64,000 bases of DNA from Cerasicoccus arenae (lineage in GTDB: Bacteria; Verrucomicrobiota; Verrucomicrobiia; Opitutales; Cerasicoccaceae), in NCBI RefSeq assembly GCF_014651635.1, contig NZ_BMXG01000009.1, positions 62,001 through 126,000 on the forward strand. The letters are read 5' to 3'. Below are positions 10,745 through 63,498 of the stretch, in pieces. Position 1 is the first letter of the stretch. Each line of letters begins with the position of its first letter. Position numbers and translations under genes: made by a program. The notes beneath the pieces are model-generated. The model ran no database searches. It was not told the origin of the DNA and saw nothing but the letters and a program-made list of their open reading frames with translations.

Positions 10745-10768
10745 CCCCCCCCCCCCCCCCCCCCCCCC
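10745..10768. repeat. C24 homopolymer tract
   Basis: Twenty-four consecutive cytosines, by far the longest homopolymer in the window. It lies 16 nt beyond the T run of the minus-strand terminator at 10785-10820, outside any gene. Such a tract is highly slippage-prone; its exact length should be regarded as uncertain. Confidence 0.95.
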
Positions 10769-10843: not shown

Positions 10844-13800
10844 TTAAGGCACCGTAGCATTGACCGTGATTGGCACCGAGAAGCCATTTTCCAGCTTAAC
10901 GAGGATGGTTGCCTCTAGACGATCACCCGAGCTCAGACCCGCAGTCAGCAGGGTGAAGGTCAAGGTCTTCGTACTACTAGAGGAGAGAGTGCCAGTGGCT
11001 GGAGTCACACTCAACCAGTCAACGGTGTCATTCATCCGGATCACGTAATCCAACGAACCGCCAAGCGCACCAGTCGTCAGCACGACATCCACTGGTGTGG
11101 TCGCACCACCAGCAACACCAGTAAGCTGGACGAAGTATTTATCTGCGGTGATCGCAATCGGACGAATCGGAAACAGCGAACTGTCGCCATACTCAATCGC
11201 ACCTTGATCTGGATTGTCCCCCGCATAAATATCGGCGAAGTTGAACATCGCCAGACCGTCGTCAATGCCAGCAGAGCCACTGGCCAAACGAAAGTCGCCG
11301 ACTGCCTCATTTACAAAGGTCGGAGCATCGTCGAGCGTGCCATTAGCTTCCATTGCAATGCCGCCATACCCAGCTTGTGTCGCCGCGTAGACCACATGCG
11401 CACTGGATAGACCAGCCGAGGAGAGGTTGTCGTAGTCGAAGCTATTCCACGGATCCTGCACGATGTCGGCAATTGGCCGGTCGTAGTTACTATGTGAGGT
11501 AAGGCAGCGAATGATGTTGTTGCGGCTCATCCCTAGGAAGAGTTTGCGCGGTGTGTCACCATCATCCCCAAAGCCAACACCCGTCAGGCCATTGCCTCGT
11601 GCATTAATGGTGTTGTTGAAGAAGAAGCTCTTACCTTTTGAATAGGTCGGCCCCCCCCCCAGCTTCACCACGGCATAACAGCTATCACGATCATCACCCG
11701 AGTTGAAAAGAAGGTTTTGATAGACATAGGACGGACCCACACTACATGGAGCCAAACTCAGGCCGACGAAGCAGCTCTCAATCCGGTTTCCGAAGTAACG
11801 GGTATTCATTTGACCGCCATCCATCTCCGTCCCGTCGTCATTAGCGAAGGCCAGCATGTTGCCATAGACATCGGTGTCGCGGTAGAAAGAGCCGTATTGG
11901 CTGTTATTGTTTTCACCTTCAATGACATCGTTCCAGCGAATTTCGTCACTTCCGATCATGTCATTATAGCGGACCACGAAGTTGCCCTTCATAATCTTGG
12001 CATAAGTACCTGAGACATTCTGCACATAGATCGCACTGGGGCCCATCGGGTGCTTGTTACCTTCCCAATTGTTCGCCATCGCCCGGGGATCGTGCATATA
12101 GCAGCGTTCCACAGTAACACGCGAACTCTGGTAAAGGTGGACTGCGGCATCCTTGTTGATCGCCTTCTTCTTACCCGCATTTTTGTCGGCCAAGGTCTCA
12201 TAATAATAGACCCCTCCCTGATAATTAGGCTCACGCGCCCAACCAGACATTTCGCAATTAACCAAGCGAATATTGTCCGACATAAGCACCTGAACGGCAT
12301 GGCGACGTCCGCCCACAATGTCGATGTTCTCTAGGATAAGATAGCTGCTGTTCTTGATCAGCACGGCAATATTCTTGGCATAACCGCCATCAATATCGCT
12401 TGAACCTGTGCCAGTGATTTTGATCCATCCGTCAGGCTCACCATGAAGGTCTTCAATCAACAACTGGCCGCTGGAGTAAAGGCTCGCCACGGTAATGGTC
12501 TCGGCAATGGGAGGTGTCGAGGACCAAGTCGTCACTGCCGATCCAGCTTCTTCCAGAACAGTCCCGTTTGCTTCGAGAACCACCTGAATTTCGTAATCGG
12601 TATCTTCTTCAAGGCCGACTACACTGCCACGGTATTCACCGCGAGTATCGTCATAGACCGGCTCAAAAGCTTCGTTCCATATCGTTTCCCCCGCCGCACG
12701 ATAGTAGATGTGAGCGACCTCATCGCTCACCTGCGCCTCACGGCTTACATATACGCTCACCGACTGATAAGTTGGCACCGTACGGACAGGCAGGTTTTGC
12801 GATTCATAAACATGAACCTCATCCAAGAAGAGCTTGCTGCTCGGGTTGTCCTTCGGCATCGAAATGCCGATCTTGATGTAAACTGTGCCTGTAGGCGCGA
12901 GTTCATAGGGACTGGAAAATTTCCGATATGGCATAGTGCCCTCAATATCGAAAATTGTGCTCGTGCCACCCAATCTAGTCGTGCCGTCAGCCGCATAGAA
13001 CCCGATGTTCATCGTCGGGCTAACCACGATGTTATCAATGGATGCTAAAACAGACAGCGAGTAATATTTACCCTCAGTGGCCGGAATCAAGTCGTGGTCA
13101 TATGACTTGTAAAAGCTAGCGCCATTAAACTTCCCAGCCTGCGCCCCGACAGCGACGGCCGTTGTTTCCACAATTACACCGCCATTCCAATCTGACACAC
13201 CGCCTTCGAAGCCGGCATCAGGCGTAATACTCGTCAATTGCTGGTTAATGAATGAGGGTGAAACAAGCCCCGTGGCGTCCGTTGTTATCAGCACGTCGTC
13301 CAGATAAGACATGCCGGTTCCCGGCTGAGCTGCTGCGAAATAAAACCGTGCAGTCGTCGCACCTGAAGGAGGGTAGATACCATCCGCATAATAGACAGTG
13401 TAGGGATTGGTGCCCGTCAGTGTAAGAAAATGATCGGTGCTCATTTGCGTACCGCTGCTATCATAATAGCGCATTTGGATCAGCCCACTAGAAGTCGCGG
13501 AATCAGAGGCTGCCGCGAAAGATAAGGCATACTCCTTGGCTGGGTCACAGGAGAATTCATACCAGGACTGTTTCCAGAATGTTCCATGTGTGATGGCTGA
13601 GGCATTGTTGCCCTCATAAGCATCTGCTCCGGTAACGAGACTCGCGTGTCCCTTATACCAACCGGAATGACCATTCTCGAATCCGCCATTGGAGTTCACC
13701 GTCACAGCCTTATGTGCGAAAATATCGAAGTAAAGTTCGTCGAAATAGGCAACACCGTACGTCGATGTGCTTTTACCAACATATAGTTGCAAGCTGGCGT

Positions 13801-14221
13801 AATCGGTATCGACCGGCACAAGCACGCCACCACTGTCGCAAGACGTATAGCTCGTAGTTCCGGAAACTCCTCCAGCCCCAACAGTCGAAATCTCTTGATC
13901 ACTGGCGTCATAAAATTTCACACGAATGCCAGCGCCACCCATCACGATGTCTTCGCACTTCACATAGCCACCGAAAGAAACAATCTGGCCAGGCTCACAA
14001 TCAATATATTGTATGATCTGTTTGAAGTAAAAAGTCTGATTAATGCGACCAGACTGGGTTCCGGCGTAGACCTCAGTGGTCTCTAAAGAAATCCCAGGCC
14101 AATTCGAAGTGCCACCTTCAAAGCCGGGATTAACTAATACATCGACGGCGGAGCATACCACCGGAGATAACAACACACAACAAGCAACCGCCATCAGGCG
14201 ACGTGGTATCATTTGATTCAT
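10844..14221 (-). CDS. Secreted right-handed beta-helix protein with three N-terminal CBM-like repeats
   Basis: An 1125-residue secreted protein. I start at ATG 14221 (MNQMIPRRLMAVACC) rather than a TTG two codons upstream. A signal peptide (to about residue 26, VVCSA) is followed by three divergent ~150-aa repeats, each beginning with N.GFE.G.S.W (about residues 30, 180 and 335), the layout of CBM4/9-like sugar-binding beta-sandwiches. Then come an FN3-like module (about 480-570), a pectate-lyase-type parallel beta-helix (about 575-1000, with SSYLILENIDIVGG and DNIRLVNCEMSG coils) and a C-terminal beta-sandwich (VDWLSVTPATGTLSSSS) resembling BACON/Ig domains. Likely a polysaccharide lyase or hydrolase; exact family not assigned. 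A G10 tract lies in frame at 11651-11660. Confidence 0.75.
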   Translation of the reverse strand: MNQMIPRRLMAVACCVLLSPVVCSAVDVLVNPGFEGGTSNWPGISLETTEVYAGTQSGRINQTFYFKQIIQYIDCEPGQIVSFGGYVKCEDIVMGGAGIRVKFYDASDQEISTVGAGGVSGTTSYTSCDSGGVLVPVDTDYASLQLYVGKSTSTYGVAYFDELYFDIFAHKAVTVNSNGGFENGHSGWYKGHASLVTGADAYEGNNASAITHGTFWKQSWYEFSCDPAKEYALSFAAASDSATSSGLIQMRYYDSSGTQMSTDHFLTLTGTNPYTVYYADGIYPPSGATTARFYFAAAQPGTGMSYLDDVLITTDATGLVSPSFINQQLTSITPDAGFEGGVSDWNGGVIVETTAVAVGAQAGKFNGASFYKSYDHDLIPATEGKYYSLSVLASIDNIVVSPTMNIGFYAADGTTRLGGTSTIFDIEGTMPYRKFSSPYELAPTGTVYIKIGISMPKDNPSSKLFLDEVHVYESQNLPVRTVPTYQSVSVYVSREAQVSDEVAHIYYRAAGETIWNEAFEPVYDDTRGEYRGSVVGLEEDTDYEIQVVLEANGTVLEEAGSAVTTWSSTPPIAETITVASLYSSGQLLIEDLHGEPDGWIKITGTGSSDIDGGYAKNIAVLIKNSSYLILENIDIVGGRRHAVQVLMSDNIRLVNCEMSGWAREPNYQGGVYYYETLADKNAGKKKAINKDAAVHLYQSSRVTVERCYMHDPRAMANNWEGNKHPMGPSAIYVQNVSGTYAKIMKGNFVVRYNDMIGSDEIRWNDVIEGENNNSQYGSFYRDTDVYGNMLAFANDDGTEMDGGQMNTRYFGNRIESCFVGLSLAPCSVGPSYVYQNLLFNSGDDRDSCYAVVKLGGGPTYSKGKSFFFNNTINARGNGLTGVGFGDDGDTPRKLFLGMSRNNIIRCLTSHSNYDRPIADIVQDPWNSFDYDNLSSAGLSSAHVVYAATQAGYGGIAMEANGTLDDAPTFVNEAVGDFRLASGSAGIDDGLAMFNFADIYAGDNPDQGAIEYGDSSLFPIRPIAITADKYFVQLTGVAGGATTPVDVVLTTGALGGSLDYVIRMNDTVDWLSVTPATGTLSSSSTKTLTFTLLTAGLSSGDRLEATILVKLENGFSVPITVNATVP
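11651..11660 (-). repeat. In-frame G10 tract in the beta-helix gene
   Basis: Ten cytosines on the plus strand, read on the minus strand as CTG GGG GGG GGG (Leu-Gly-Gly-Gly) near residue 855 of the beta-helix protein. A one-base change in length would truncate the C-terminal quarter. Confidence 0.9.
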
Positions 14222-14281
14222 GATCAACTAGGGTTAACAATGGTGACGCCTTACAGGGGAGTAGCGCCAAGTTACGAGAAG

Positions 14282-14332
14282 TCCCACAAGTGGGATACAT
14301 GGCTGATCAAATATGATATTCTGACTAAGTCA
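14282..14332 (-). promoter_or_regulatory. Two palindromes upstream of the beta-helix gene
   Basis: TCCCACAAGTGGGA (14282-14295) is a perfect inverted repeat around AA, and TGACTAAGTCA (14322-14332) is a 5-bp inverted repeat around a central A. They lie 60-110 nt upstream of the ATG at 14221. The second sequence recurs exactly at 19106-19116 before the GH36 gene, so it is a candidate operator shared by two carbohydrate genes. Confidence 0.5.
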
Positions 14333-14483
14333 AACTAAATACTATCTTATACAGTCGCATCTGAGGATTTCATAATTATTTCACCATCCTGAATTAGTCA
14401 GAGACAAAGCGAATTAAAATGACCGCAGCTACAAGTTGCCAATCACTGGGAGCAGGGCGAACTTACCAATGACAAAAGCTCAA

Positions 14484-17280: not shown

Positions 17281-19080
17281 TTAGCTCGTGATAGTAACTT
17301 TGGCATAACCTGAACAAGGCGTCACGATTGTCACGATCCCCGAGATGCCATCCATTACTCTTGTTGATAGAAGTATTCCGCAGCAATCGTAAACTGTAAT
17401 CTTGGCATTCTTCGTTGAGTTACCGAATGCGGCATGAATTACGCCCATCTCCGTGGCGTTCACGAGGGTTGCCGAACGTTCCTTCAGCGGTGGCAGTGTC
17501 ATGATGCAATCTTCCTGATACACAACGGCGCAAAGTTCGGTGTCATTTTCAGCGATAACGACCGGATAGAGACACAGTGGGTTGAGCGGCGTTAGCTTGC
17601 CATGCATCAATAGGTCTTTCCGTTCGAGCCAGAAACGTAGATAAAAAGCCAGCATACGCTGATGCGCCTCGCCAATAGCATCCTTCTCAACCGAGATTTG
17701 CGGGACAGAAAACAGGATTGCCCATAGTTGTAATGCCGCGCGCTCAACGGATTCACCTGCATTCCACATCACCATGTCGGAATGCACGGCGGTATTGCCG
17801 GACAAAAGCCGTAAATCAATCGTTCGGACTCGATTGCTCAACGCGTCGTTGGGGCAGTCTTGTGCACGGAAAATATTACCATATTTCCGCATAGCTGGCC
17901 CGATATAGCGTTGGCGAAACTCAATCAGCACGTCGGGATTCAACGTGCGCAGCTCCGCCATGATATCAGTAAAGAGCCGGTCCGTCGCAGCCGGCACAGA
18001 TACCATGTCAGCTTCCTCTGAATCACTTTTTACGGCAACTTCAGCTGTAAATTGATCCACGAAGTCCAACTTGAGCCCGTCTAGGCCCCATTCGCCAATC
18101 GCGCGACGGTAGCAATCAATCAGCATGCCGCGCACAGACGGAAAACGCGGGTCCAGGCAATCGGCATTGCGATGCGGCTTAGGTAAAACACGGTCTCGAA
18201 AACACTGCCATGCCTCGCTTTTGTTTCCGACATAGGGAACCGAATACCACAGGAGATATCGCATATCCAGCGCTTTGATGCGCGCCACATGAGCGGTAAA
18301 ATCAGGAAACTTCGATTCCGCAATTTCCCAGTCACCACAATAGGCGTAGCCCTTGTTGCTGTCGTCGGTCTGCCAGCCGTCGTCAAGAATCAGCGTCCGG
18401 CAACCCAGATCGCGCGACCAAGCGCAATTTGCCTCAATCCCCTCTTCGCTAAGTTCCTGATGAAAGCTATACCATGAGGAATAAACAGGATCGTAAGCCG
18501 CCTCCGGGACGGGCGCTGGCCGATATTCATCCATGCCTGCCCACCAATCGCTAACCCCAGCCAAAGCCTCATTATACGCGATTGCACGCTCATCAATACG
18601 CAGGATGAAGGAATACTTATCCATCTCGGGCCAAGGCGCATCGAACAGGACCAGTGTGCATTTGAAGGCAGCGACATCTTCTTCCACCTGCACGCGGATT
18701 CCGACTGGGTTTATGGCATCCGACAGGGCAAAGGTGTGGCGGTTCTCACCACTGCCAGAATACAGCGCATACACAGGTGCGCCAAGCGTGGCGTAATTGT
18801 TGATCGTTTGTACCCAACCAGAGCTTAGTGAGCGGTCGCTGCCAATGGTGGGATGCCATTTTCCAGCAATATCAACCAGCGGGATGAGCCACTCCAGCAC
18901 AATGGGGCTTGGTGCCTGTCTTTGTGCAAACTGAATACGTATATCGTATTCCTTAAGCCCCGGTGCGCATGTCTTCACCACGCTACTCGCGGTAAATTCC
19001 TGTTCCGCATCAACCGAACGGATCGTGGCCGATGGGATGAAAAACGGGCTAAAGGGGGGGGGGGAGGAAACACTGACCAT
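17281..19080 (-). CDS. GH36-like alpha-galactosidase
   Basis: A 599-aa glycoside hydrolase of the GH36/clan GH-D type. Residues 203-208 (WYSFHQ), 232-237 (LDDGWQ) and 331-340 (WGLDGLKLDF) mark the TIM barrel; D339 is the expected nucleophile. An N-terminal beta-sandwich and a C-terminal beta domain are present. No signal peptide is evident, so it is probably cytoplasmic and acts on imported oligosaccharides. This fits its position immediately before the TPR lipoprotein and solute-binding genes on the same strand. Residues 7-9 are Pro-Pro-Pro encoded by a C11 tract (19054-19064) only nine codons from the start, so a single-base slip would abolish the protein. A family palindrome lies 26 nt upstream. 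Confidence 0.85.
   Translation of the reverse strand: MVSVSSPPPFSPFFIPSATIRSVDAEQEFTASSVVKTCAPGLKEYDIRIQFAQRQAPSPIVLEWLIPLVDIAGKWHPTIGSDRSLSSGWVQTINNYATLGAPVYALYSGSGENRHTFALSDAINPVGIRVQVEEDVAAFKCTLVLFDAPWPEMDKYSFILRIDERAIAYNEALAGVSDWWAGMDEYRPAPVPEAAYDPVYSSWYSFHQELSEEGIEANCAWSRDLGCRTLILDDGWQTDDSNKGYAYCGDWEIAESKFPDFTAHVARIKALDMRYLLWYSVPYVGNKSEAWQCFRDRVLPKPHRNADCLDPRFPSVRGMLIDCYRRAIGEWGLDGLKLDFVDQFTAEVAVKSDSEEADMVSVPAATDRLFTDIMAELRTLNPDVLIEFRQRYIGPAMRKYGNIFRAQDCPNDALSNRVRTIDLRLLSGNTAVHSDMVMWNAGESVERAALQLWAILFSVPQISVEKDAIGEAHQRMLAFYLRFWLERKDLLMHGKLTPLNPLCLYPVVIAENDTELCAVVYQEDCIMTLPPLKERSATLVNATEMGVIHAAFGNSTKNAKITVYDCCGILLSTRVMDGISGIVTIVTPCSGYAKVTITS
19054..19064 (-). repeat. In-frame C11 tract at codons 6-9 of the GH36 gene
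   Basis: Eleven G on the plus strand, read on the coding strand as TCC CCC CCC CCC (Ser-Pro-Pro-Pro) very near the N-terminus. This is the position typical of slippage-driven phase-variable ON/OFF switches. Confidence 0.9.
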
Positions 19081-19105
19081 AGCGCTTCATTCATTATTCA
19101 GCCTC

Positions 19106-19116
19106 TGACTAAGTCA
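19106..19116 (-). promoter_or_regulatory. TGACTAAGTCA palindrome before GH36
   Basis: An 11-bp palindrome located 26-36 nt upstream of the GH36 start, identical to that at 14322-14332 before the beta-helix gene. Overlap with the probable promoter would suit repression. Confidence 0.5.
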
Positions 19117-19163
19117 ACAACAATTCATGGATGGCTTGTGAGAGCGGCAAAGCTTTTAAGAGG

Positions 19164-20315
19164 TCAATTAGCCCGCGACAGTGCTGCTAAGGTCCATTGA
19201 TATTCGGCTATCAATTGTTCGTCCACATTGGAACGGTGCAGGTCGGCAGGGAGAACGTCCCAAGTGTAAGTTTCCATCTCCAGGTGGTGACAAGCTGCTG
19301 GGTGACGCGCTAACCAGTCCAAGGCCCCTTCCAGGTGGTCACGGGTTGACTGCAAAGGTACCGCGGGTTCGTCACTCAGGGGAATATGAAAATGCACGCG
19401 CCATTCTTCGCCAAGCTCGTCACCGCGCTGGGCGGCAGCCAAGGCCTCGGGCAGGTCAATAATGCGGCGAAGTTCGGTGCCTTGTTTGACGATAACCTGG
19501 TGCAGGTACGTTTCGTCCGCAAACGGCGTGAGCGCTTGCCAGGCATCATTCCGCGGGTCGAGCTTGAGCGCGGAGCTCAGGTGCAGTTTGCTTAAGCGGA
19601 TGCCAGCCCGCGAAAGGCGGTCCAAGGCCATGGCGGGTTCTTCATATTCCACCGCAAGGTGGCAGGTATCGTAATTAACGCCGACAAAGGGCCGAAGCCA
19701 ATCGCCGTGGCTATCAACGAGTGCGTCAAAAAAGTCTACAGTCTCGGGCGTGGTCTCGAAGAGGCCAAGGGGCTCCGGCTCCAAGCCAAGATGCAGGTCC
19801 TTGCCCGTTCGATCCACCAGATCGGCGATGTGACGCCCGCAATTTGTGACATTGCGCCGCAAGGCCCGGATAGCCTCTGGTGTGAGATCAAAGCGCTTGA
19901 ACGAGCCAGGCAAGGTGCTAACACTGCCCTCTAAGATATCGGCTGGTAGCAACTCGGCCAAGATGTCGAACAGGCGATTGGTATAATCGAGGCGCTCCGG
20001 CGTCGTCCAATCTGGCCGGTAAACATTCTCCTTCACTCGCGTCCCGTGAAAATCGCCGTAGGGGAAACCGTTGATCGTGAAAACATAGCAATCCGCACCG
20101 TCGAGCCAGCGGCGAAAGGCTTGCATCGCGGTGGCGTCGAGTTGCTGCGCAGCTTGGGCGCTCAGGCGCAGGCCAATGCCAAATCGCTCATCCGGCGCGA
20201 CGCGTTGCTTGATTACGGGGATATGCGTTTGCAGCTGGCGAAAAGTATCCTCCCACGTCTCCGCCGGATGGATATTCGTGCAATAACCGAGATGCCTGTC
20301 GCCACGTAGCTGCAT
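19164..20315 (-). CDS. eboE: EboE-like TIM-barrel protein (metabolite traffic)
   Basis: A 383-aa xylose-isomerase/AP-endonuclease-like TIM barrel matching EboE: opening YCTNIHPAETWEDTF, FGIGLRLSAQAA, then the metal-site motifs GLEPEPLGLFETT, NYDTCHLAVEYEEP, SKLHLSSAL and HFHIPLSDEP. Ebo proteins are known from clusters needed for trafficking or maturation of secondary metabolites; the reaction of EboE is undefined. It is the last gene of the long operon that starts with MoxR at 36661; its start lies 2 nt after the eboB stop. EboA, EboC (UbiA-like) and EboD are not in the window. Confidence 0.78.
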   Translation of the reverse strand: MQLRGDRHLGYCTNIHPAETWEDTFRQLQTHIPVIKQRVAPDERFGIGLRLSAQAAQQLDATAMQAFRRWLDGADCYVFTINGFPYGDFHGTRVKENVYRPDWTTPERLDYTNRLFDILAELLPADILEGSVSTLPGSFKRFDLTPEAIRALRRNVTNCGRHIADLVDRTGKDLHLGLEPEPLGLFETTPETVDFFDALVDSHGDWLRPFVGVNYDTCHLAVEYEEPAMALDRLSRAGIRLSKLHLSSALKLDPRNDAWQALTPFADETYLHQVIVKQGTELRRIIDLPEALAAAQRGDELGEEWRVHFHIPLSDEPAVPLQSTRDHLEGALDWLARHPAACHHLEMETYTWDVLPADLHRSNVDEQLIAEYQWTLAALSRAN

Positions 20316-25533: not shown

Positions 25534-28059
25534 CTAACGGGAACCGGATGCAAGATTACGACGGTACTGCTCAATCATAGAACGATATTCATCGGGATAA
25601 GATTCGGCTAAAGATTGGCGGATAGCTTCGCGTTCGCGGGCGGGTAATCCCGTAAATTCGCCTTCGCCAAGGATGTCTTCGCCCGAGGTGGTAGACTTTT
25701 CTCCATCAGAGGCCAGTTTGCCAGTGCCTTTGGGATCACTGGAGTCCGAGGACTCCTCGCTACTTTCACTGGGTTCGCCTTCGCCAGATTCCGAAGAGGC
25801 CATATCGCCGGGTTGTGTGGGCTGACCTGTATTCTCGCCTTCTTGTGGTTCCCCAGGTTGTTCACCGCCACTAGCCTGCTGGGCTTCAATTTCAGCGACA
25901 AGGTCACCAGAACCAGCTTCAGCTTTGGCCTCGGCAATGGCTTTCTTAGCACCGTGCAACGCATCAAGGGCCTCTTCGGCCTTCGCTTTGGCGGACTGAG
26001 TGTTGCCCCTCTCTAAACTTTTCTTAGCGGCGTCTAATGCAGCTTCAGCGGCGGCAACTGCGTCCTTGGCTTGCTGAGGTAGGTCGCCGATGGCCTTGTC
26101 CTTGGATTCTTCCCCTTTTTTGTCTTCGGCATCGGCTTGCATTTCTTCTCCAGGTATTTCGCCCGTCTCAGTCTTATCACCGGCTTCACCCTTCTCGGCA
26201 GCATCATTAGTAGCCTGGGCCTTCTGGGCCTGTTGGGCTTCCTGACCAGCGTCATTGGTGGCTTGAGGCTCGGCATCCGCGCCATTCAGAGCATCAAGAG
26301 CGTCCGCAATATCATCAAGCGCCTCGGCTTGATTGCCTTGGTCTAATTCGTTGAGTGCGTCATTCGTGGCCTGTTCGGCTTGGTTCAAAGAGGCATCGGC
26401 TTGGGCGAGTTGTTCTTCGTTGGCGGCAGGTTCGGCATTTTGGTCTGCCACTTCGGCCTGCTGATCCGCTTGCTCACTGGCAGTCTGTCGACCTGCGAGC
26501 AACAGTAATTCCAGCGCTTCATCTTGTGCATTAAGCACGAGAGCGCCGCGGCCCTGAAAAGCCATATTGTTGCTGGCACCCTCCATTTTTCGGGCAGCAC
26601 GACCAAGAATTTCCGCGGGTTCAGGAGTGGCCTCCCACGCTTCTTTCTGCAAAAACTCAGTAGAGTGGCGAATGCGTTCCTGTTCTGCAACAAGGCTACT
26701 AAGATCCGAACCGGACTTCTCACGCTTGCGAGCTTGGATGTTGAGCGCGGTCTGCCACTGGATCAGCTTTTGCAGCTTCTCGGCGAATGAGGCCAACGCC
26801 TCCTGTTGATTTTCCGGCTCGGCATTCTGTTGCTGTTTTTCCTGTTGAGCGGCTTTCTCTGCATCTTTTTGAAGAGTAGCGAGGGCCTGCTCCAACGAAG
26901 TAATTGCCTGTAATGCGGTCCCTGCCGCTTCAGTACGCTTCTCGAGATCCTTTGATGGCATCTGCGAACGAGCGGCACGCATCCGCATCATGGACTGTTG
27001 CAGATCAGGGACAGCCTCCGGGGCCTCATTGCGAGCAGTTTCAAAAATCCCGACGACATCCTGAAGAATCACGCCTTGGTAGCTGGCTAAACTGCGCATA
27101 CTGTTCAAATCCTTCACTTTCTTGACACTGTCGCGGTGTAACAGCGTTTGCTCCTGAATAGCTTTCTGCAACCGCTCTGCCAGCTCCAGAAGACGCTCTG
27201 AACGGGGGGATTTGGGCGTCAAGTAGCCGATGAGCTCCTGCATGGCGGTTAAGGCGTTTTTTTCAAAAGAAACCGCGCTGTAGACCTGCTCTTGGTCCAA
27301 CGCCTCACGGGCGCTAGAGAGCTGCCCAACAATCCGCTTTTGCTGGATGAGTGCTAATGCCCCCTTGTAAAGTGCTGAAGACTCAGGATCGCCACTTGAG
27401 GCAATGATTTCGATCGTCGAGATGACATAGTTAAACTGATCGCTGAGATCGCGCTGCTCTTCGTATTGAGAGTCCACCGAGGCGGATTGAATTTCCGACA
27501 ATGCGCTTCCGGCCTTCACGTGCTGCGCTAGCCCAATGCCAGCTTCCAGATTGCCTTGTTGACGCTGAACGAGCTCTTGCAAGATCGCTGGGACGGCGGA
27601 AACGTCTCGCTTCTGGTTGTATTCGTTGACGAGGTCGCGCAACTGTACAAGCACCGAGAGCTGCCCGCTGTAGGCGCTCATGAGAAATGCGCGGGCCTCT
27701 GACTCCGAACCAGCCTGTTGTGCTTGGTCCAGCTTGTTGAGGATCTTGGCCATCTCATCGAGGCTGCTATTGGACAAGAGTAGGCGCGTGCGCTTCAAAT
27801 CTTCGACTTGCTGGCCACCCAGTCCGTTGCGCTCGTATTCGAGAATGATCGAATCCAACTGGCTAATGATCTGCTGGGTGCGCTCACGCAGCCTTGCCTG
27901 CTCAGCCTTTTTGTCTCCCAAAGCCATTTTTCCGTCCGATGAGGCAATTGAGGGGGGGGGGGCTGACTTCACCGATTGGCCTATTGCGCCAGTGCTAAAT
28001 AGGACGCTGGTGAGGACGAGGAGAACGAGGCGGGGTAAATATTTCACTGTGTCTAACAT
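25534..28059 (-). CDS. Large Ala/Glu/Gln-rich coiled-coil envelope protein
   Basis: An 841-aa protein with a signal peptide (VLFSTGAIGQS), then long coiled-coil helices (residues 50-480: ARLRERTQQIISQLDSII..., EKAAQQEKQQQNAEPENQQEALASFAEKLQ) and a highly acidic, low-complexity region (about 540-790) of Ala/Gln/Glu/Asp and Ser/Gly-rich repeats. It ends with a short folded segment (AREREAIRQSLAESYPDEYRSMIEQYRRNLAS). This composition resembles the large DUF4175-associated proteins of Bat operons. Residues 34-37 are encoded by a C11 tract. The gene starts 62 nt after the preceding stop, the largest gap in the operon. Confidence 0.65.
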   Translation of the reverse strand: MLDTVKYLPRLVLLVLTSVLFSTGAIGQSVKSAPPPSIASSDGKMALGDKKAEQARLRERTQQIISQLDSIILEYERNGLGGQQVEDLKRTRLLLSNSSLDEMAKILNKLDQAQQAGSESEARAFLMSAYSGQLSVLVQLRDLVNEYNQKRDVSAVPAILQELVQRQQGNLEAGIGLAQHVKAGSALSEIQSASVDSQYEEQRDLSDQFNYVISTIEIIASSGDPESSALYKGALALIQQKRIVGQLSSAREALDQEQVYSAVSFEKNALTAMQELIGYLTPKSPRSERLLELAERLQKAIQEQTLLHRDSVKKVKDLNSMRSLASYQGVILQDVVGIFETARNEAPEAVPDLQQSMMRMRAARSQMPSKDLEKRTEAAGTALQAITSLEQALATLQKDAEKAAQQEKQQQNAEPENQQEALASFAEKLQKLIQWQTALNIQARKREKSGSDLSSLVAEQERIRHSTEFLQKEAWEATPEPAEILGRAARKMEGASNNMAFQGRGALVLNAQDEALELLLLAGRQTASEQADQQAEVADQNAEPAANEEQLAQADASLNQAEQATNDALNELDQGNQAEALDDIADALDALNGADAEPQATNDAGQEAQQAQKAQATNDAAEKGEAGDKTETGEIPGEEMQADAEDKKGEESKDKAIGDLPQQAKDAVAAAEAALDAAKKSLERGNTQSAKAKAEEALDALHGAKKAIAEAKAEAGSGDLVAEIEAQQASGGEQPGEPQEGENTGQPTQPGDMASSESGEGEPSESSEESSDSSDPKGTGKLASDGEKSTTSGEDILGEGEFTGLPAREREAIRQSLAESYPDEYRSMIEQYRRNLASGSR
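27952..27962 (-). repeat. In-frame C11 tract near the N-terminus of the coiled-coil protein
   Basis: Eleven G on the plus strand, coding GCC CCC CCC CCC (Ala-Pro-Pro-Pro) around residues 33-36, just after the signal peptide. Same arrangement as in the GH36 gene: a slip would remove 95% of the protein. Confidence 0.9.
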
Positions 28060-32328: not shown

Positions 32329-34521
32329 TTAACGAGATCGACTAAAGCGTTGAGCCAGAATGGTTTCTGATATAATTAACACAAAGGCCAAGAGAATGAA
32401 AATTGAGGTCAGCTCGGTGCCGGCACGGTTGGTGTCCATCTGGCCCCGTAATGATGCGCCTTGCTCCCAAGTGACGACTTGGGCGGATTTTGCCAGCAGC
32501 TCCTTTTGGGCATCGGGGAGCAGCTCAGGGCGCGATTCAGAGGGATCAAACTGGGCGGCAAACTTGATAATCGTCTCCGGCTGGGTGTCCAAAGTAATCT
32601 GATACCCCCCCCCCTGCCGGACGTTGGGGATGCGCAAACGCGCCTGCCCCTCGACCAACTCCACCGTGGTGCTTTCCTGGTAAGGAACATCACGCTTATC
32701 AATGCTCTCCACCGTCGCCGTGGCGTCGGCGTAGCTGTCACTCATGTTGAGCATGAAGGGCTGACCCGCGCGAATATTCAGGCGGTCATCCTGACTCTGG
32801 ATGATGTAGCCAATCGTCCGGTGTAGGAACGGCAAATAAATCGCGCGCAAGGGGAAATCGTTCCAGCGAGTATCCGCCGTGCTACCAAACAGAACCACGC
32901 GACCATCGCCATAAGCACGCTCCATGATTGCGGGCGTGCCGTCGCTGTAGTTGAGCACCGATACTGGCGGACCAGCGAGACGAAGCGCCTCCGGGCGCAG
33001 GCGGGGAGTTTCTTCTTCTGGCGGCCATTGAGTTGGCAGCAATTCAGCGCGTTCGTAGATTAACGCCGTGCCGAGGGACCCCTCCGAGGAACCTGTAAAA
33101 ATCGCCGGAATCGGGTGCTCTGGTGCCCGCGCATCGAAGCTGAAGACCTCGTTGGGAATCGCGCCTGGCATGTAGAGCGCGGCAGGCAGCATCGCGTATT
33201 CGTCGAAAAGCACGTCATTATAAAAGGCCGTGTCGGTCTTGGGACCAGGGAATATCAACAGCCCCCCCCCGTTGCGCAGGAAGTCCGCCAAACTGGCCAC
33301 CATCGAGCTTGAGAGTCGTTCGACATCGGAGATGACCACGATGTCCGCTCGGGCAAGATTGGCGGCGCGAAATTGCGATGCGTTGACGTCTTCCACCTGG
33401 ATATAGAACTCACTCCGACGCGACTCCGGCACCGGCTGAAGGGCACCTTTTAAGAAGAACAACGAACGGTCCTTTTCTTCCTTAGCCTCGGAGCCATCGA
33501 CGAGGAGCACGTTAATCGTGTTGTGGGCCTGGATGGCGATGGTCCGCTGGTCGTCCGCCTTCAGACGATCATTCGGGATCGAGGCCGTGACCGTGTGGTA
33601 GCCATCTTCAGCCAAGCGCGCGTCCATGGACACCGTCTTGGATTGGCCGGGCTCGATCAGCTCAATGTTGGCGTCGTTGATCGGCGCCCCACCGTCCAGC
33701 GCAAGGAACACTTTGACATTGTGCGCCTCGGTGTTGCCGTAGTTCGTGACTTCAACGTAGAAGCGGACTGGACGGCGGGTCGAAACAAGTTCTGAGTCCG
33801 GCCGTAAAAGGCTGACGCCCAAGTTCGGCTCAGTCCCCTGCCCCAGAAAAATCATGGTCGCGGGAAAACGCGAGGCCGCCGTCTCCAGTGTGTTGACGAC
33901 CTGCGTTAAGTCGCGAAAACCGAGGCTCTGACCGTCGGTCAGCACGTAGAGTTCGCCCTTGGCCCCTTGGTCCGAGGTGATCAGATCCACCGCACTTTGC
34001 AACGGCCCAGCAAGATTCGTCGACTGGTCCGATGGCTCGAAATTCCGCAGTGTGCTCCGCACCAGAGACATATCCTGAGTTGGCACGGAAATGGCCGGAT
34101 CGAGATTGTCCGAAATCAAAAACACCGCCACTTTGGAGCCCGTCGGCAAAGAGTCGACAATGGCCTCTCCAGCGGCGCGAGCGCGGTCACGACGCGTGTC
34201 CACCCCGTTACTCGTACTCATGCTATAGGAGTTATCGATCAGCAGAACGGCGCTGGTGCTCGACAGGCCCATAAAGTTATCTCCCGGCAAAATCGGGCGA
34301 GCCAGCGCCAGCGCCAGCATTATGATGATCAGACAGCGAATGAGCAGCAGCAGCAGGTCCTCAATACGAAGTTTTTTCTGATGCTGCTGGATGCTCTTTT
34401 GCAGAAACTGCATGGCTGCCCACTTCGTATACTCGACGCGGGTGCGGTTTAGCAATTCCAGGAGAATGGGGATGGCGATCGCCGAAGCTCCGAACAGCAA
34501 TGCGCCATTGAGAAATGTCAT
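32329..34521 (-). CDS. BatA-domain / VWA membrane protein
   Basis: A 730-aa protein beginning with the BatA (aerotolerance regulator N-terminal) signature: a helix, LLELLNRTRVEYTKWAAMQFLQKS, and a second helix (residues 55-75, LLLLLIRCLIIIMLALALARPIL). A VWA domain has its metal site at residues 96-100 (DNSYS). A middle region resembles an amidotransferase-like fold (ADFLRNGGGLLIFPGPK), and a C-terminal transmembrane helix (SIFILLAFVLIISETILAQ) closes the protein. Two in-frame G tracts are present (33262-33270, GGG; 32605-32614, GGG). 16 nt after DUF58. Confidence 0.75.
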   Translation of the reverse strand: MTFLNGALLFGASAIAIPILLELLNRTRVEYTKWAAMQFLQKSIQQHQKKLRIEDLLLLLIRCLIIIMLALALARPILPGDNFMGLSSTSAVLLIDNSYSMSTSNGVDTRRDRARAAGEAIVDSLPTGSKVAVFLISDNLDPAISVPTQDMSLVRSTLRNFEPSDQSTNLAGPLQSAVDLITSDQGAKGELYVLTDGQSLGFRDLTQVVNTLETAASRFPATMIFLGQGTEPNLGVSLLRPDSELVSTRRPVRFYVEVTNYGNTEAHNVKVFLALDGGAPINDANIELIEPGQSKTVSMDARLAEDGYHTVTASIPNDRLKADDQRTIAIQAHNTINVLLVDGSEAKEEKDRSLFFLKGALQPVPESRRSEFYIQVEDVNASQFRAANLARADIVVISDVERLSSSMVASLADFLRNGGGLLIFPGPKTDTAFYNDVLFDEYAMLPAALYMPGAIPNEVFSFDARAPEHPIPAIFTGSSEGSLGTALIYERAELLPTQWPPEEETPRLRPEALRLAGPPVSVLNYSDGTPAIMERAYGDGRVVLFGSTADTRWNDFPLRAIYLPFLHRTIGYIIQSQDDRLNIRAGQPFMLNMSDSYADATATVESIDKRDVPYQESTTVELVEGQARLRIPNVRQGGGYQITLDTQPETIIKFAAQFDPSESRPELLPDAQKELLAKSAQVVTWEQGASLRGQMDTNRAGTELTSIFILLAFVLIISETILAQRFSRSR
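32605..32614 (-). repeat. In-frame G10 tract in the BatA/VWA gene
   Basis: Ten C on the plus strand, read as GGG GGG GGG plus one G (Gly-Gly-Gly in RQGGGYQ). It lies in the C-terminal part of the 730-aa BatA/VWA protein. Confidence 0.9.
33262..33270 (-). repeat. In-frame G9 tract in the BatA/VWA gene
   Basis: Nine C on the plus strand, read as GGG GGG GGG (Gly-Gly-Gly in RNGGGLL) in the amidotransferase-like region. It is the second such tract in this gene. Confidence 0.9.
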
Positions 34522-44238: not shown

Positions 44239-45000
44239 TTATTTGCGTTGCCCACTCAGATGCACCATAAGCAACATGCCACTCAGGATTATGCCCGGCA
44301 ACAAGACCAACCAAGGAGCATTCGTCAGGTAGGCTTGATTCTGCCTGAGCATGGCCCCGAGCTCGGGGAAATCCGGATCGCCAATTACACCCAAAAACGC
44401 CAGCCCGCTCAACTCTAACGCGCTCAGTGCAAAAACCAACCGTGCCAGTGCAACAACGTCAGGCATGAGATTCGGCCAAAGCGTCCAACGAAAGAGTTTC
44501 CATCCCGTCACTCCCAGCGCGGAACTCGCCTCAACATAAGCCATGCGGCGCTGCTCGCGCCACGTTACCCGCAGTTGGCGATAGCTGACCGGTGTGTTAC
44601 CCAGCGCGACCGCGAGCACTACCGTGCCGCCAGCTGGTGGCAGGAACATCAGTAGGATCAGACTCAAAAAAACAACAGGAAATCCCAGCCAAACTGCTGC
44701 CACCAAGGGGATCAGTGTGCGGCCTATTATGGGGACTTTCTCTTCAATTACAAGCATCATCGAAGCCACAGCAAAATTCAAAACTAAAGCAATCAGGCTA
44801 AGCGCGACAGTGTTACCCAAGCCTCGCCAGAGCCGGCTAAGTACATCGCGGCCCAAGCCATCAATACCGAGCAAATGCGGCGGACTAAAGCCTCCCAAGC
44901 GCAGTTCGCGGAAGTCTTGTGCCAAAGGATCGTATGGCGTCCATAGGAGACCCAGAGCTGCGATCAGCGCCACGCACACCAGCAGCCAATTAATGCGCAT
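44239..45000 (-). CDS. Oligopeptide-type ABC transporter permease (DppC-like)
   Basis: A 253-aa polytopic permease of the DppC/OppC type: an N-terminal helix, YDPLAQDFRELRLGGFSPPHLLGIDGLGRDVLSRLWRG motif, then five more helices including the EAA-type loop region (EASSALGVTGWKLFRWTLWPNL). I choose ATG 45000 because a GGAGGT Shine-Dalgarno (45006-45011) is correctly spaced; an adjacent ATG at 45003 is less well placed. Its start overlaps the DppB-like gene stop by 11 nt. No ATPase or binding protein accompanies it here. Confidence 0.85.
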   Translation of the reverse strand: MRINWLLVCVALIAALGLLWTPYDPLAQDFRELRLGGFSPPHLLGIDGLGRDVLSRLWRGLGNTVALSLIALVLNFAVASMMLVIEEKVPIIGRTLIPLVAAVWLGFPVVFLSLILLMFLPPAGGTVVLAVALGNTPVSYRQLRVTWREQRRMAYVEASSALGVTGWKLFRWTLWPNLMPDVVALARLVFALSALELSGLAFLGVIGDPDFPELGAMLRQNQAYLTNAPWLVLLPGIILSGMLLMVHLSGQRK

Positions 45001-46009
45001 CATCGACCTCCGAATTTGCCAGTTGCGGGTTAAGGGCAACAGCTAAAAGTTCAGCGCCCCAAACCACCACAAAAATTAAAAACATCACGAACAGCAGCGC
45101 ATACTGAATAACAAAAACATCTCGGTCGAGCACTGCACCAACAAGGTACCGGCCCATCCCCGGCCAAGCGAACACAGTCTCAGTCAACACCGAACCACCC
45201 AACAACAGGCCAAAGCTCGTTCCCAAAGCGATAATCAACGGAGCTCCGAGCAGCCGTAAACCATGCCTGAGCCAGATGGCCGCGTGGGAAAGCCCCTTGG
45301 CCCGCAAAGCAATAACCAACCGCTGCCAGCGTGGCTCGTGCAACCGTGCACGCAACAATCCGCTAACCACTGCTGCCGGAAAAAATGACAGGCAAAACGC
45401 TGGTAACGCTAAATGATGCAGCGCCGAAACAAGTGCCGCACCATCCCCCGATCGAATTGAGTCGATAACTAAAAAGCCCGTACCACTCGGCCGATCGAGC
45501 ATAAAGTTGAATTGCCCCGAGACCGGAAACGCCCCACACCAGACGGCCCCCACGATGATCATCAGAAGACCGAGCCAGAAGATCGGCACGGTGAGGCCCA
45601 GTGCCCCGAGTACCGCGGGCATTTTTTTCGCCCAGCCCCATGGTAACGCCTCCCCCAAAAGTGTCGTCGCCAAGCCCATCAGCGTCCCGAGAACCAGCGC
45701 AATAAGGCTAAGTTCCAAGGTTGCGGGTAGTCGATTGGAGACCTCATCAGCAACAGGCCTCTGGTTAAGAATGCTCGCCCCCCAATCGCCTCTCAGGAAG
45801 TTGCCAAGGTAGTTCAGGTATTGAGTGCGCCAAGGCAAGTCCAGACCGAGCGCCGTTTCGATCTCCCTTGTTCGCTCGGGGTCTGGTGCTTTTTGCGCGA
45901 GCAGCACTCCATCGCCCAACGCCAACCGTGATGCGCCAAACAGCAAAGCACTCGCCGTCAGAAACAGCGCCAGCAACAGCAAAGACTTGCGCAGCACGTA
46001 AGCGACCAT
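44990..46009 (-). CDS. Oligopeptide-type ABC transporter permease (DppB-like)
   Basis: A 339-aa permease from ATG 46009 (MVAYVLRKSLLLLAL; a GTG at 46030 is an alternative). Six transmembrane helices with DppB signatures: LGLDLPWRTQYLNYLGNFLRGDWGASILNQRPV and VLTETVFAWPGMGRYLVGAVLDRDVFVIQYALL. It overlaps the next permease gene by 11 nt, so the pair is a heterodimeric permease. The ligand is unknown; partners may be elsewhere. Confidence 0.88.
   Translation of the reverse strand: MVAYVLRKSLLLLALFLTASALLFGASRLALGDGVLLAQKAPDPERTREIETALGLDLPWRTQYLNYLGNFLRGDWGASILNQRPVADEVSNRLPATLELSLIALVLGTLMGLATTLLGEALPWGWAKKMPAVLGALGLTVPIFWLGLLMIIVGAVWCGAFPVSGQFNFMLDRPSGTGFLVIDSIRSGDGAALVSALHHLALPAFCLSFFPAAVVSGLLRARLHEPRWQRLVIALRAKGLSHAAIWLRHGLRLLGAPLIIALGTSFGLLLGGSVLTETVFAWPGMGRYLVGAVLDRDVFVIQYALLFVMFLIFVVVWGAELLAVALNPQLANSEVDDAH
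45006..45011 (-). promoter_or_regulatory. Strong Shine-Dalgarno (GGAGGT) before the second permease
   Basis: GGAGGT on the minus strand lies 5 nt upstream of ATG 45000. Most other starts in the window show no comparable site, which decides between the two tandem ATGs here. Confidence 0.75.
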
Positions 46010-46068
46010 CTCGCTATGCCAACCGCGCACGTCTCCTTGTCAAGCCAGCGTCCCGCTAAATCGGAGAG

Positions 46069-46127: not shown

Positions 46128-46138
46128 GGGGGGGGGGG
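46128..46138. repeat. G11 tract upstream of the permease pair
   Basis: Eleven G (plus strand) between the 248-aa protein stop and the permease inverted repeat, about 120 nt before the first permease start. It could tune promoter spacing by slippage. Confidence 0.9.
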
Positions 46139-58591: not shown

Positions 58592-59722
58592 TCAGCTTGT
58601 CCGCGCGATCAGTCCATCGACAAGAGTCAGAGCAATGTCCACTCGGTCGTGCACCGTGGTAGTATAGCAGATATAGCGATCATCGAAACAGAATTGCGGA
58701 TGCGGATGCAGGTGGCCGCACTGGGTAAGGTCTCCCCGAAGCGGACCGCGGTTTACTATTTCAATTTCCTTTCCGGTCACCGTGTTCTGGAAAATGACAT
58801 GACAATCCGGCGTACCCGGATGGTCCATCCGGTCGGCCACAAGATAACGATTCGTGCGGTCAGAATGTGCATGCGAAAGCGCACCAGGCCAAATGAGAGT
58901 CTCTTCTCGACTTACCACATCTACTTTTTTAACACCAACACCATAATGCAAATACCAGATATGCCGCCCATCGGCAGACCACCATTCATGCCCGCTATGG
59001 CTGACGGGCGTGCGAAGGAGTGGTTCCGCTTGTTCACCACGGCGAATTAACCAAATGCGGTGATATGGAAGTTCGTGGTCGAATGGTTCGTGGTCCTGCC
59101 AATATTCGTGGGCAAATAATTGAAGATCAGAATCGTGGGGACTGAAGCAACCATGGTCATAGTATTCTCCCTCATACTTGTTCCAAAGCTCAAAGGGAGA
59201 TCCATCTAGCGGCAGTGCTCCGATGTAGCAAATTGGTGTGCCGTCGCGCTGAATAAAGCGAGCATCCACGTTCAAGTTTCGGCGATCTGCTGAAAATGTT
59301 GGGTGGGTTGCGAGTAACGCCAGTCGGCCAGTTGCCAGTTCAGACGGAAAGCTGTTTACCAACTCTGCACAGTCGTTCGCACCGGTGCCACGCTTCCATA
59401 TGTCGAGGTGATTGCTCCAGTAAGCTTCACCCGTGGTTTGATCGACCATAGCTGATTCAGCGGGAAACTGAGTTTCCGGAAACACTCGAACTTGCTCTTC
59501 ATGAAAATCAACGACGCCCAGCACCTGCTGCGAATGCCTCCCTCCTGGCGGTGGAAATCCGCAGCGCAGCCAGAGGAAGCGCCCGTCGCTACTAAAGCTT
59601 GGGTGCGTATAATAGAACGACTGTTGTACCGGCGCAGGGCGCTCCGTCAGAATAAAGCTCTCAACCCCATTGGCTGGGTTCTCCCAAGATGTAAAAAGCT
59701 TCGAGGTCTCAGGTGTGGTCAT
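58592..59722 (-). CDS. Oligogalacturonate lyase-like (PL22-type) beta-propeller protein
   Basis: A 376-aa beta-propeller protein resembling oligogalacturonate lyase (PL22): repeated blade motifs (THPSFSSDGRFLWLR, HPTFSADRRNLNVDARF, HEWWSADGRHIWYLHYG), and a His-rich putative metal site GHLHPHPQFCFDDRYICYT near the C-terminus, similar in spacing to the Mn-binding histidines of PL22. No signal peptide, so it is cytoplasmic, as expected for degradation of imported oligomers. Distinct substrate in this host possible. Confidence 0.65.
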   Translation of the reverse strand: MTTPETSKLFTSWENPANGVESFILTERPAPVQQSFYYTHPSFSSDGRFLWLRCGFPPPGGRHSQQVLGVVDFHEEQVRVFPETQFPAESAMVDQTTGEAYWSNHLDIWKRGTGANDCAELVNSFPSELATGRLALLATHPTFSADRRNLNVDARFIQRDGTPICYIGALPLDGSPFELWNKYEGEYYDHGCFSPHDSDLQLFAHEYWQDHEPFDHELPYHRIWLIRRGEQAEPLLRTPVSHSGHEWWSADGRHIWYLHYGVGVKKVDVVSREETLIWPGALSHAHSDRTNRYLVADRMDHPGTPDCHVIFQNTVTGKEIEIVNRGPLRGDLTQCGHLHPHPQFCFDDRYICYTTTVHDRVDIALTLVDGLIARTS

Positions 59723-59809: not shown

Positions 59810-59847
59810 GGGGGGGGGCATTGCCCTCAAATCCTGAGAGCAATGCC
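59810..59847 (-). terminator. Terminator-like hairpin followed by C tract instead of T run
   Basis: On the minus strand GGCATTGCTCTC / GAGGGCAATGCC (59836-59847 / 59817-59828) forms a 12-bp stem with one G-T pair and a 7-nt loop, beginning 9 nt after the stop at 59857. It is followed directly by seven C where a T run is expected; the G9 tract (59810-59818, plus strand) overlaps the stem end. Intrinsic termination would be weak; it may be an mRNA-stabilising hairpin. Confidence 0.6.
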
Positions 59848-62800: not shown

Positions 62801-63117
62801 AATGGCAACGGATCATAGTCGATTGTCAGACCTCGTATCGTCAGGTTTCTACAGTTCTTAATGACCAGTGCACTTGCCTTTGGGTTCGTCGCAATAAGAG
62901 AAACGCCATGCGCATTAATTGTCACATCAGTCAGATCCTCAAGCAAAAGTCCATCAGTCGGAAGTTCATAACGACCCGGCGTTAAATCCACAACAGACGC
63001 CTGGGCGGGCGGAATTGATTGTAAAACAAGAAGTGCATCTGAAGGTTCACTACCTTGCACGAACTGGCCAGCCACTGCTGCCAAGATTATAGAAACGTAG
63101 AAGCGCGTGTTATTCAT
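59857..63117 (-). CDS. Two-module secreted right-handed beta-helix protein
   Basis: A 1086-aa exported protein (signal peptide ending FVQGSEP). Module 1 (about residues 40-580) is a parallel beta-helix with coils such as LVIKNCRNLTIRGLTIDYDPLPFTQGSI, GCEFAYMGDDGVNLHGV and FDVIIRDNNISD-type turns. The GDDGVNLHG loop resembles GH110-type alpha-1,3-galactosidases, but the family is uncertain. Residues about 620-750 are a beta-sandwich (FCFTIEFVKSGFSGRSIVLNVG). Module 2 (about 760-1070) is a second beta-helix starting VDQRGGSIYASLSSAVADALPGDVINIAPG. A G10 tract lies 14 nt upstream of its ATG. Glycan-cleaving role inferred from fold and neighbours. Confidence 0.65.
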   Translation of the reverse strand: MNNTRFYVSIILAAVAGQFVQGSEPSDALLVLQSIPPAQASVVDLTPGRYELPTDGLLLEDLTDVTINAHGVSLIATNPKASALVIKNCRNLTIRGLTIDYDPLPFTQGSITAVNSVNRTADVTIHTGYPDLTADYLVKRMNLFEETDHRWKVGAPDYYLEDFEALDERHGRVHFRSSDAGFNHVEVGDRVAFNIRSVAGVMIKDRTEGLVLEDCTLHASPGVGILVRFAEDAGIYERLRVVPGPIPDGATEARLLSTSADGFNAAYTRIGPIISGCEFAYMGDDGVNLHGVVLPVLEWEDSRTCLSMRPYGGQVFDQVLRPGDEARFILEPNFQLVETAVIESIEQVAGSVEDWFSVAHEIWPSFQTFTNATFFRIRFEEPVLNVPAEGAFCEFFASAASGYVIENSYFHDHRARGLRLMAGNGVVENNRFERLKGVAISAGPEFAYWKEAGWVHDLTIKNNEISNVGQGADVFSVNSYTLGAISLYARVIPDGEQTQYFKGNENILIEGNVIQKCAIDAISIVASKDVIIRDNNISDVNSIDSSTAGSSYGLGFGQPIAVIQSDAIIESNAITELEDMLEVSVTSGKPNISEDIAYVNPADTNGLRFYWIEGDGRRALGQQFQVENALTATQLALEINSSTSNSDLACPLRLTFSRCSQGSPEPREEIATYYGVIPEGSNIHSNQWLCLEFPELNLGVGNYCFTIEFVKSGFSGRSIVLNVGSAVDAYSGGKGIQSPGNSLNEWKYGRPINFILSGIEMSQGGSGGVAPRMLKVDQRGGSIYASLSSAVADALPGDVINIAPGSGPYREPLYVNKSGLLGKPIVVEGNDETITGFEPLDDFRIEGGKYVCDINVPFPFVIRFQGERLLQDANNGQFTKYALLTEGNSQLELLPGVSRHGWEISTRYFAVRIQNASHHIYRNIRASGATNDGFNLHGSGEGLVFEYVEAFQNADEGFSAHDNMSCEIHTAAFYENDNGIGNVGASEMVASNVDVFNNLGWGLWLTNCSAVLNDISAWDNGMSQVYLKGSAQVDVSGVTAYEPTWNTRMWMSYKESANVTVPTPLIIDNQVQLYGESVYLELLPVQ

Positions 63118-63498
63118 AGGGGTATTTTTAGGGGGGGGGGAGGGAAATCGAAAAAGTTTAAAGCGATGCCTTTAACTTCTCCGATCAAGCAAAACGTAAT
63201 GAGATAAAGCCCAATACGTATTAGGTGAATATTGACACTTCAAACTCCTTTGCAAGAATAATCGTAAACATCCGAGTTGCGTCCCGTCTTAACTCGGTGA
63301 TTCATACGCATGTCGCAACGGGATCTACATCCATGGCTTAGTCGCCCTTAAGAAGGGCAGACTAAAATTACTTGGCCATTATTAAATAACTTTTCTTCTG
63401 CAGATACGTGATGAGTATTGAATATACTGGCCTGATATGAAAATCCTTAAACGCCCACAACTAAAGAATCAAAATCAATAGCGTCTGCTTAGCTTTTT
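63118..63498. other. 381-nt divergent region before the alpha-mannosidase
   Basis: Holds a G10 tract (63131-63140), a 6-bp inverted repeat GCCCTT-AAG-AAGGGC (63344-63358), and a GTTGCG ... CGCAAC pair (about 63275-63318) that are half-site variants of the GCAA/TTGC elements. No gene fits; the minus-strand frame at 63475-63678 lies over the alpha-mannosidase start and is a shadow. Confidence 0.6.
63131..63140 (-). repeat. G10 tract just upstream of the beta-helix gene
   Basis: Ten G on the plus strand (C10 on the sense strand), 14-23 nt before ATG 63117, the position of the leader or promoter-proximal region. No Shine-Dalgarno is seen between tract and start. Confidence 0.9.

Follow-up and report, generated by a model that had tools for sequence, protein, structure and literature searches.

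In Haemophilus genes of the lic1 type, a slippable repeat is preceded by several ATG codons that do not all share one frame, and expression levels of these genes have been measured. Among Campylobacter genomes, 1944 poly-G/C tracts of 7 or more nucleotides were counted over 77 genomes with PhasomeIt; tracts may have arisen there, among other ways, by consecutive glycine codons turning into a G run (PMC6321876, excerpt). Variable homopolymers at meningococcal SSR loci are predominantly of 8 or more nucleotides; 49% of the variable clusters lie upstream of genes, and 59 of the 324 variable repeat clusters are G/C (PMC5084427, excerpt). Poly(A) and poly(T) tracts of up to 7 nucleotides crowd at the 5' ends of prokaryotic genes (Orsi et al. 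2010, PMC2831843, excerpt). Titles and abstract openings of the matches listed for Verrucomicrobi* with phase variation, SSR or poly-C/G, and for the Cerasicoccus genome, contained no such report.

The locus considered here is a C11 tract in a GH36-like gene, for which the initial annotation had proposed phase-variable expression. It lies in a window of 64 kb, the whole stretch of DNA that was analysed, which belongs to the 4.13-Mb genome G000; G-numbers denote genomes and L-numbers sampled loci. Features of the window are listed in Table 1.

Table 1. Tracts, start codons and related features of the 64-kb window
Feature	Position	Strand	Context
C24 tract	10745..10768	+	intergenic
C10 tract	11651..11660	+	within ORF 10844-14227(-); homologous stretch in G002 is TGGTGGTGGC
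GH36/Melibiase-like ORF	17281..19080	-	599 aa; four closest orthologs align from residues 11-20
C11 homopolymer	19054..19064	-	G11 on + strand; codons 6-9 of the GH36-like ORF
ATG(0)	19078..19080	-	enzyme frame at C8, C11, C14
ATG(-10)	19088..19090	-	enzyme frame at C10, C13
ATG(-14)	19092..19094	-	enzyme frame at C9, C12, C15; GAGG 7 nt upstream
TTGACTTAGTCA near-palindrome	19106..19117	-	26-37 nt upstream of the GH36-like ORF; possible operator
G11 tract (coding strand C11)	27952..27962	+	codons 33-36 of ORF 25534-28059(-)
C10 tract	32605..32614	+	within ORF 32329-34521(-)
C9 tract	33262..33270	+	within ORF 32329-34521(-); G002 has GGTGGCGGG
G11 tract	46128..46138	+	about 100 nt upstream of ORF 44990-46030(-)
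G9 tract	59810..59818	+	87 nt upstream of ORF 58592-59722(-)
G10 tract	63131..63140	+	13 nt upstream of ORF 59857-63117(-)

The C11 tract and the start region of the GH36-like gene

The C11 run is present in the assembly at exactly 19054-19064, as had been claimed. Its description as an in-frame run near the start was right, but the distance of eight codons was loose: the run begins in codon 6, 16 nt into the ORF. The tract is longer than the hypermutability threshold of 8 or more G/C nucleotides (PMC6321876, excerpt), and a one-base change shifts the reading frame near the 5' end, counted from the annotated ATG. The short frameshifted peptides foreseen for a one-base slip were recovered from this ATG, with 34 aa at C10 and 10 aa at C12.

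The predicted protein matches the Pfam Melibiase profile PF02065 with 43.1 bits (cut-off 27), which upholds the GH36 assignment at the level of the family, the activity being predicted. The four closest orthologs are 63% (G004), 58% (G002), 58% (G030) and 51% (G009) identical, and the homolog L051, on which the description of the bacterium as Puniceicoccaceae-like is based, is 60% identical. None of the 12 distinct GH36 homologs inspected, all from other species and with a best identity of 63%, has an N-terminal tract; these comprise the four closest orthologs and eight further distinct homologs, 13 loci being counted as 12 because L035 and L054 are apparently the same sequence. The homolog L118 has a G8 located 396 nt ahead of the aligned part, thus not N-terminal. 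Since the alignments with the orthologs begin at the end of the tract or beyond it, the tract encodes an unconserved tail.

Three ATG codons lie within 14 nt upstream, represent all three frames and are each open up to the tract; therefore, every length from C8 to C15 retains an in-frame ATG. ATG codons in both other frames within 30 nt were found in 2 of 942 genes, the GH36 gene among them, and this gene is the only one with three such ATGs among the 13 listed genes with a near-start tract; the feature was spotted after the fact, in one gene. Translation from ATG(-14) through the assembled C11 would give a 39-aa peptide. The spacing from GAGG to ATG(-14) is among the commonest for SD-like motifs in this genome (7-9 nt), but such motifs are scarce: of 651 genes starting with ATG, 39 carry one at a spacing of 4-10 nt, compared to 25 at 21-27 nt, so the motif is no guide to the ATG used by GH36. 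Slippage might accordingly swap start codons and not turn the enzyme off. An extended form of this idea, in which a lineage trait homogenises G-rich stretches longer than about 8 nt into several hundred slippable tracts and the GH36 tract acts as a start-codon selector grading expression or the N-terminus, each length class framing a different one of the clustered ATGs with no OFF state, appears quite improbable to us.

The proposed phase switch was thus sustained in part: length and place of the tract fit hypermutable tracts and a one-base slip breaks the annotated frame, but the tract is one of 455, is absent from the 12 homologs and has ATGs in three frames upstream. A dedicated ON/OFF switch of GH36 is possible, and the only features suggesting it are the length and place of the tract. 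We regard as unlikely the broader reading that the tract is a selected contingency locus, by which slippage would switch GH36 expression, possibly within a very large phasome. The length and 5' place of the tract are those of known phase-variable genes, as far as the excerpted reports describe them; the lack of the tract in GH36 homologs and the three-frame ATGs, which would defeat a clean OFF state, count against it. Evidence from the rest of the genome that bears on this reading is given below.

Inspection of positions 18950-19300 for a sigma-70 promoter or terminator consensus found none. The TTGACTTAGTCA near-palindrome is common to the upstream regions of the G004 and G030/L054 orthologs, occurs as a variant in L051 and was not seen upstream of the remaining GH36 homologs compared. 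Its occurrence upstream of GH36 and of orthologs makes ordinary transcriptional control plausible. A second near-palindrome of this type is located in the window at 14322-14333(-), upstream of the large ORF 10844-14227, and four others were observed upstream of genes in a 1.26-Mb sample (L174:12714, L326:13795, L344:2977 and L344:5927). These sites are a possible candidate for the operator of a regulon.

Tract abundance in the genome and its relatives

The window contains 45 overlapping C8 matches, whereas 100 shuffles averaged 1.94. Its nine runs of at least 9 nucleotides comprise one C24, three G11 and five with lengths of 9-10. For length 11, at most 0.02 per base is expected from first-order composition, and an 11-base run in 64 kb is not a chance product; by the same window counts, the C11 is one among many tracts. 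The tract at 27952-27962 comes after a stretch that by eye resembles a signal peptide.

Genome G000 contains 455 G/C runs of 9 or more nucleotides. The highest counts in a search of 222 other genomes of relatives were 94 in G001, of the same genus, and 89 in G061; the remaining two genus mates have 52 and 5 runs, the latter being G002. A phylum-level draw of 288 genomes, partly overlapping the set of relatives, contained only one genome exceeding G000, namely G283, with 556 runs in 3.0 Mb. In 134 kb sampled from G283 (L351-L360), long stop-to-stop ORFs make up 94% of the sequence and contain all 29 runs, unlike in G000. As one of about 450 long G/C runs, the GH36 tract is likelier to reflect a genome-wide peculiarity than a purpose-built switch.

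The excess is confined to long G/C runs. A 1.264-Mb sample of G000 contains 68, 67, 39, 51 and 33 G/C runs of 7, 8, 9, 10 and 11 nucleotides, respectively, with a second mode at 10; the longest run in the length table is 28, with one further case of 33. Lengths of 5-7 are without excess and lengths of 8 or more are in excess; since runs of 5-6 fall below the Markov expectation in G000 and in relatives alike, the excess begins at about 8. A/T runs stop at 9 in the same sample, and the 31 that reach at least this length in the whole genome are an ordinary number by comparison with 53 relatives. The G/C tracts of 8 or more also cluster, with 21 neighbouring pairs less than 500 nt apart among 81 tracts (null mean 6.6), 17 of the 21 pairs being of the same base. 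An effect of replication strand or orientation was rejected, as the strand bias of tracts (51:30) equals that of G-rich seeds (205:111).

Mononucleotide tracts build up in repair-poor bacteria, and loss of mismatch repair would yield a mutator genome with growth of all homopolymers. MutS (open frame of 889 aa) and MutL (668 aa) are encoded in G000, both above the family cut-offs, and missing or broken copies of these genes were thereby rejected as a cause; A/T runs, moreover, show no growth. Among 6 MutS and 7 MutL family members, however, G000 differs at 8 and 2 otherwise invariant columns, respectively, in MutS on C29 (L142) and MutL on C5 (L147), and a C8 is located close to the 3' end of mutS, so the presence of the genes does not prove repair function. 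Repair loss is nevertheless a highly improbable explanation of the tracts.

Placement of tracts and alignment with genus mates

The first sample contains 81 tracts of 8 or more, of which 13 had alignable counterparts in genus mates and were sorted by eye. The length of the tract equals that of the relative in 12 of the 13 cases, and the counterpart is interrupted G-rich text in 11, for example GGGGCGGCGG or the G002 stretch given in Table 1 for the C9 tract; of the other two, one has weakly G-rich text and one a tract in G001. The exception in length is a GcvP-like gene (L162:2603-5549), the frame of which is broken at G13 and intact in three genus mates; a split pair of the GcvP type was also observed on contig 5 of G000. 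Several tract-forming changes are synonymous, in Gly or Pro codons, and a nonsynonymous one converts EGEG to EGGG in a GatB-like gene on which the mates agree by eye. Conversion of sites with a single interruption into pure runs of 8 or more was counted 40 times toward G000 and not once toward the mates, compared to 19 and 15 times, respectively, for runs of 5-7; these counts come from four stretches chosen for their G000 tracts, are taken per mate and are not independent.

Length kept and interruptions replaced by G are what an artefact of base calling or assembly would produce, in which reads of one direction would show stretches like GGCGGTGG as pure G and this erroneous version would win the assembly. 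The C11 of GH36 may then be interrupted text of equal length. We consider such an artefact unlikely. Apart from the alignments, the one-way conversion and the broken GcvP-like gene, it is favoured by contig ends, 8 of the 20 sampled (L175-L194) having a G/C run of 9 or more no farther than 100 bp away, with about 0.2 expected; by enrichment of A on the two flanks, which reaches 46 and 47% at runs of 8 or more but 22 and 31% at runs of 4; and by contig numbers, the two run-rich genus mates having about 70 contigs each and G002, with its 5 runs, about 10. Some other contig ends of G000 carry repeated sequence in common. Illumina errors triggered by GGC also fit this explanation (PMC4381044, citing Nakamura et al.); the available part of the same source, on the other hand, describes systematic errors as likely in a single read direction. 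A further point against the artefact is the tract at a homologous place in two species (L159:8598 in G000 and L203:3015 in G001), in a gene that by eye is glycosyltransferase-like. Two of 28 G001/G003 tracts had an ortholog compared, and these stretches were preselected for tracts, so no rate of sharing can be derived.

The placement of the tracts departs from that of G-rich text. The noncoding share is 28.8% for tracts of 9 or more (45 of 156), compared to 13.0% for runs of 5-7 (137 of 1053), 5.7% for GGxGGxGG/CCxCCxCC stretches (42 of 740) and 8.8%, 12.6% and 12.0% for three sorts of G/C-rich windows (322 of 3660, 60 of 478 and 50 of 418, respectively); the odds of a noncoding position are 2.7 to 6.7 times those of these five control sets. 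Long tracts shun coding DNA, 9 of the 45 noncoding tracts being of 14 or more, against 3 of the 111 coding ones. The start-proximal region (-150 to +130) contains 53 of the 156 tracts, compared to 192 of the 1053 short runs and 115 of the 740 GGxGGxGG/CCxCCxCC stretches. Miscalls that track G-rich text everywhere would not be expected to give so many noncoding tracts; the surplus of tracts outside coding DNA and around gene starts thus speaks against plain misreading, and on this placement we favour real tracts under purifying selection over an artefact.

Near starts, the coding-strand ratio of C to G is 43:10 for tracts and 107:85 for short runs, which also speaks against an artefact. This preference for C had been noticed by eye in sample 1, with ratios of 16:3 near starts and 12:17 in gene interiors, and was then checked on held-out 800 kb, where it was confirmed against short runs (27:7 vs 74:60, p 0.011) and was not significant against gene interiors (27:7 vs 36:21, p 0.16). 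A possible cause is that G runs around start sites are selected against. The crowding near starts and the C bias could likewise reflect selection for switching and so support a contingency locus, as do near-start tracts in other genes: among those with a tract at most 8 nt from the start codon are genes for an amylase, for a rhamnosidase and for a regulator of the LacI type. Enrichment at starts is, however, also expected because N-termini are less constrained, and the held-out comparison with gene interiors tells against switching as well. C9-C12 tracts immediately or almost immediately after a start codon were observed at L168:15486, L330:11545, L335:7968(-), L313:17978 and L315:8885, where they encode MPPP-type N-termini.

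Tracts occur in conserved genes, noncoding DNA and variable N-termini. Tract-bearing ORFs include some that, judged by their sequences, appear to resemble GatB, GcvP, RarA, Nth and topoisomerase; Pfam matches among 10 tract-bearing proteins were Dus, LacI, ABC-3 and amylase. Such hundreds of tracts, with housekeeping-like genes included, are a further argument against a contingency locus. Codon-model checks of the reading frame around tracts, a weak test, gave the same frame in 14, another in 3 and an undecided or edge result in 38 of 55 cases with a span of 150 nt; a stricter version, also weak, gave 9 same and 2 changed of 156, with p 0.12 against short runs and p 0.04 against control words, one of the two changes being a false alarm by eye.

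Favoured explanation and comparison with known systems

We judge it somewhat probable that G:C tracts have built up across the whole genome, specifically in this lineage and subject to purifying selection, and that the C11 is one of them. A lineage trait of replication or repair, other than absence of MutS or MutL, would allow G-rich stretches to turn into pure runs, and to remain so, once they are about 8 nt long; purifying selection would leave them mostly in low-cost places, such as DNA outside genes, N-termini that are not conserved, linkers rich in proline and Gly-Gly or Pro-Pro codons in frame with the run. The unconserved N-terminal tail of the GH36 enzyme would be one such place; its tract can probably slip, and a slip would mainly shift the start site and perhaps the expression level. 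We know of no mutational mechanism that purifies interruptions at constant length and only past a threshold, and this counts against the favoured explanation.

If real, the tracts provide a test case for the formation and purging of homopolymers with mutS and mutL genes in place, and a warning that a tract beside a start codon is in itself no evidence for selection of a switch. Otherwise, the assembly contains hundreds of errors at G/C-rich text, and similar genomes, e.g., G283, are suspect.

The lic1-type genes resemble the GH36 gene in having multi-frame starts before the repeat, a tetranucleotide in the former and a mononucleotide in the latter. Campylobacter is similar to G000 in having G/C tracts of at least 7-8 nucleotides, most of them within ORFs, and the glycine-codon origin named for it matches several G000 alignments (PMC6321876, excerpt). 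By division, Campylobacter has about 25 tracts per genome and G000 has 455 of 9 or more, which, if the tracts are real, is about 18 times as many, with cut-offs and genome sizes differing; unlike in Campylobacter, as far as that survey describes it, many tract-bearing genes of G000 look like housekeeping or carbohydrate genes. Homopolymers crowded toward 5' ends are shared with the tracts of Orsi et al., but those are A/T of up to 7, whereas those of G000 are G/C of 8 or more, with no A/T excess (PMC2831843, excerpt). Meningococcal SSR variation was measured, whereas the G000 tracts are known from one assembly (PMC5084427, excerpt). The G000 tracts are thus a known kind of element, far more numerous and with another gene profile as far as examined.
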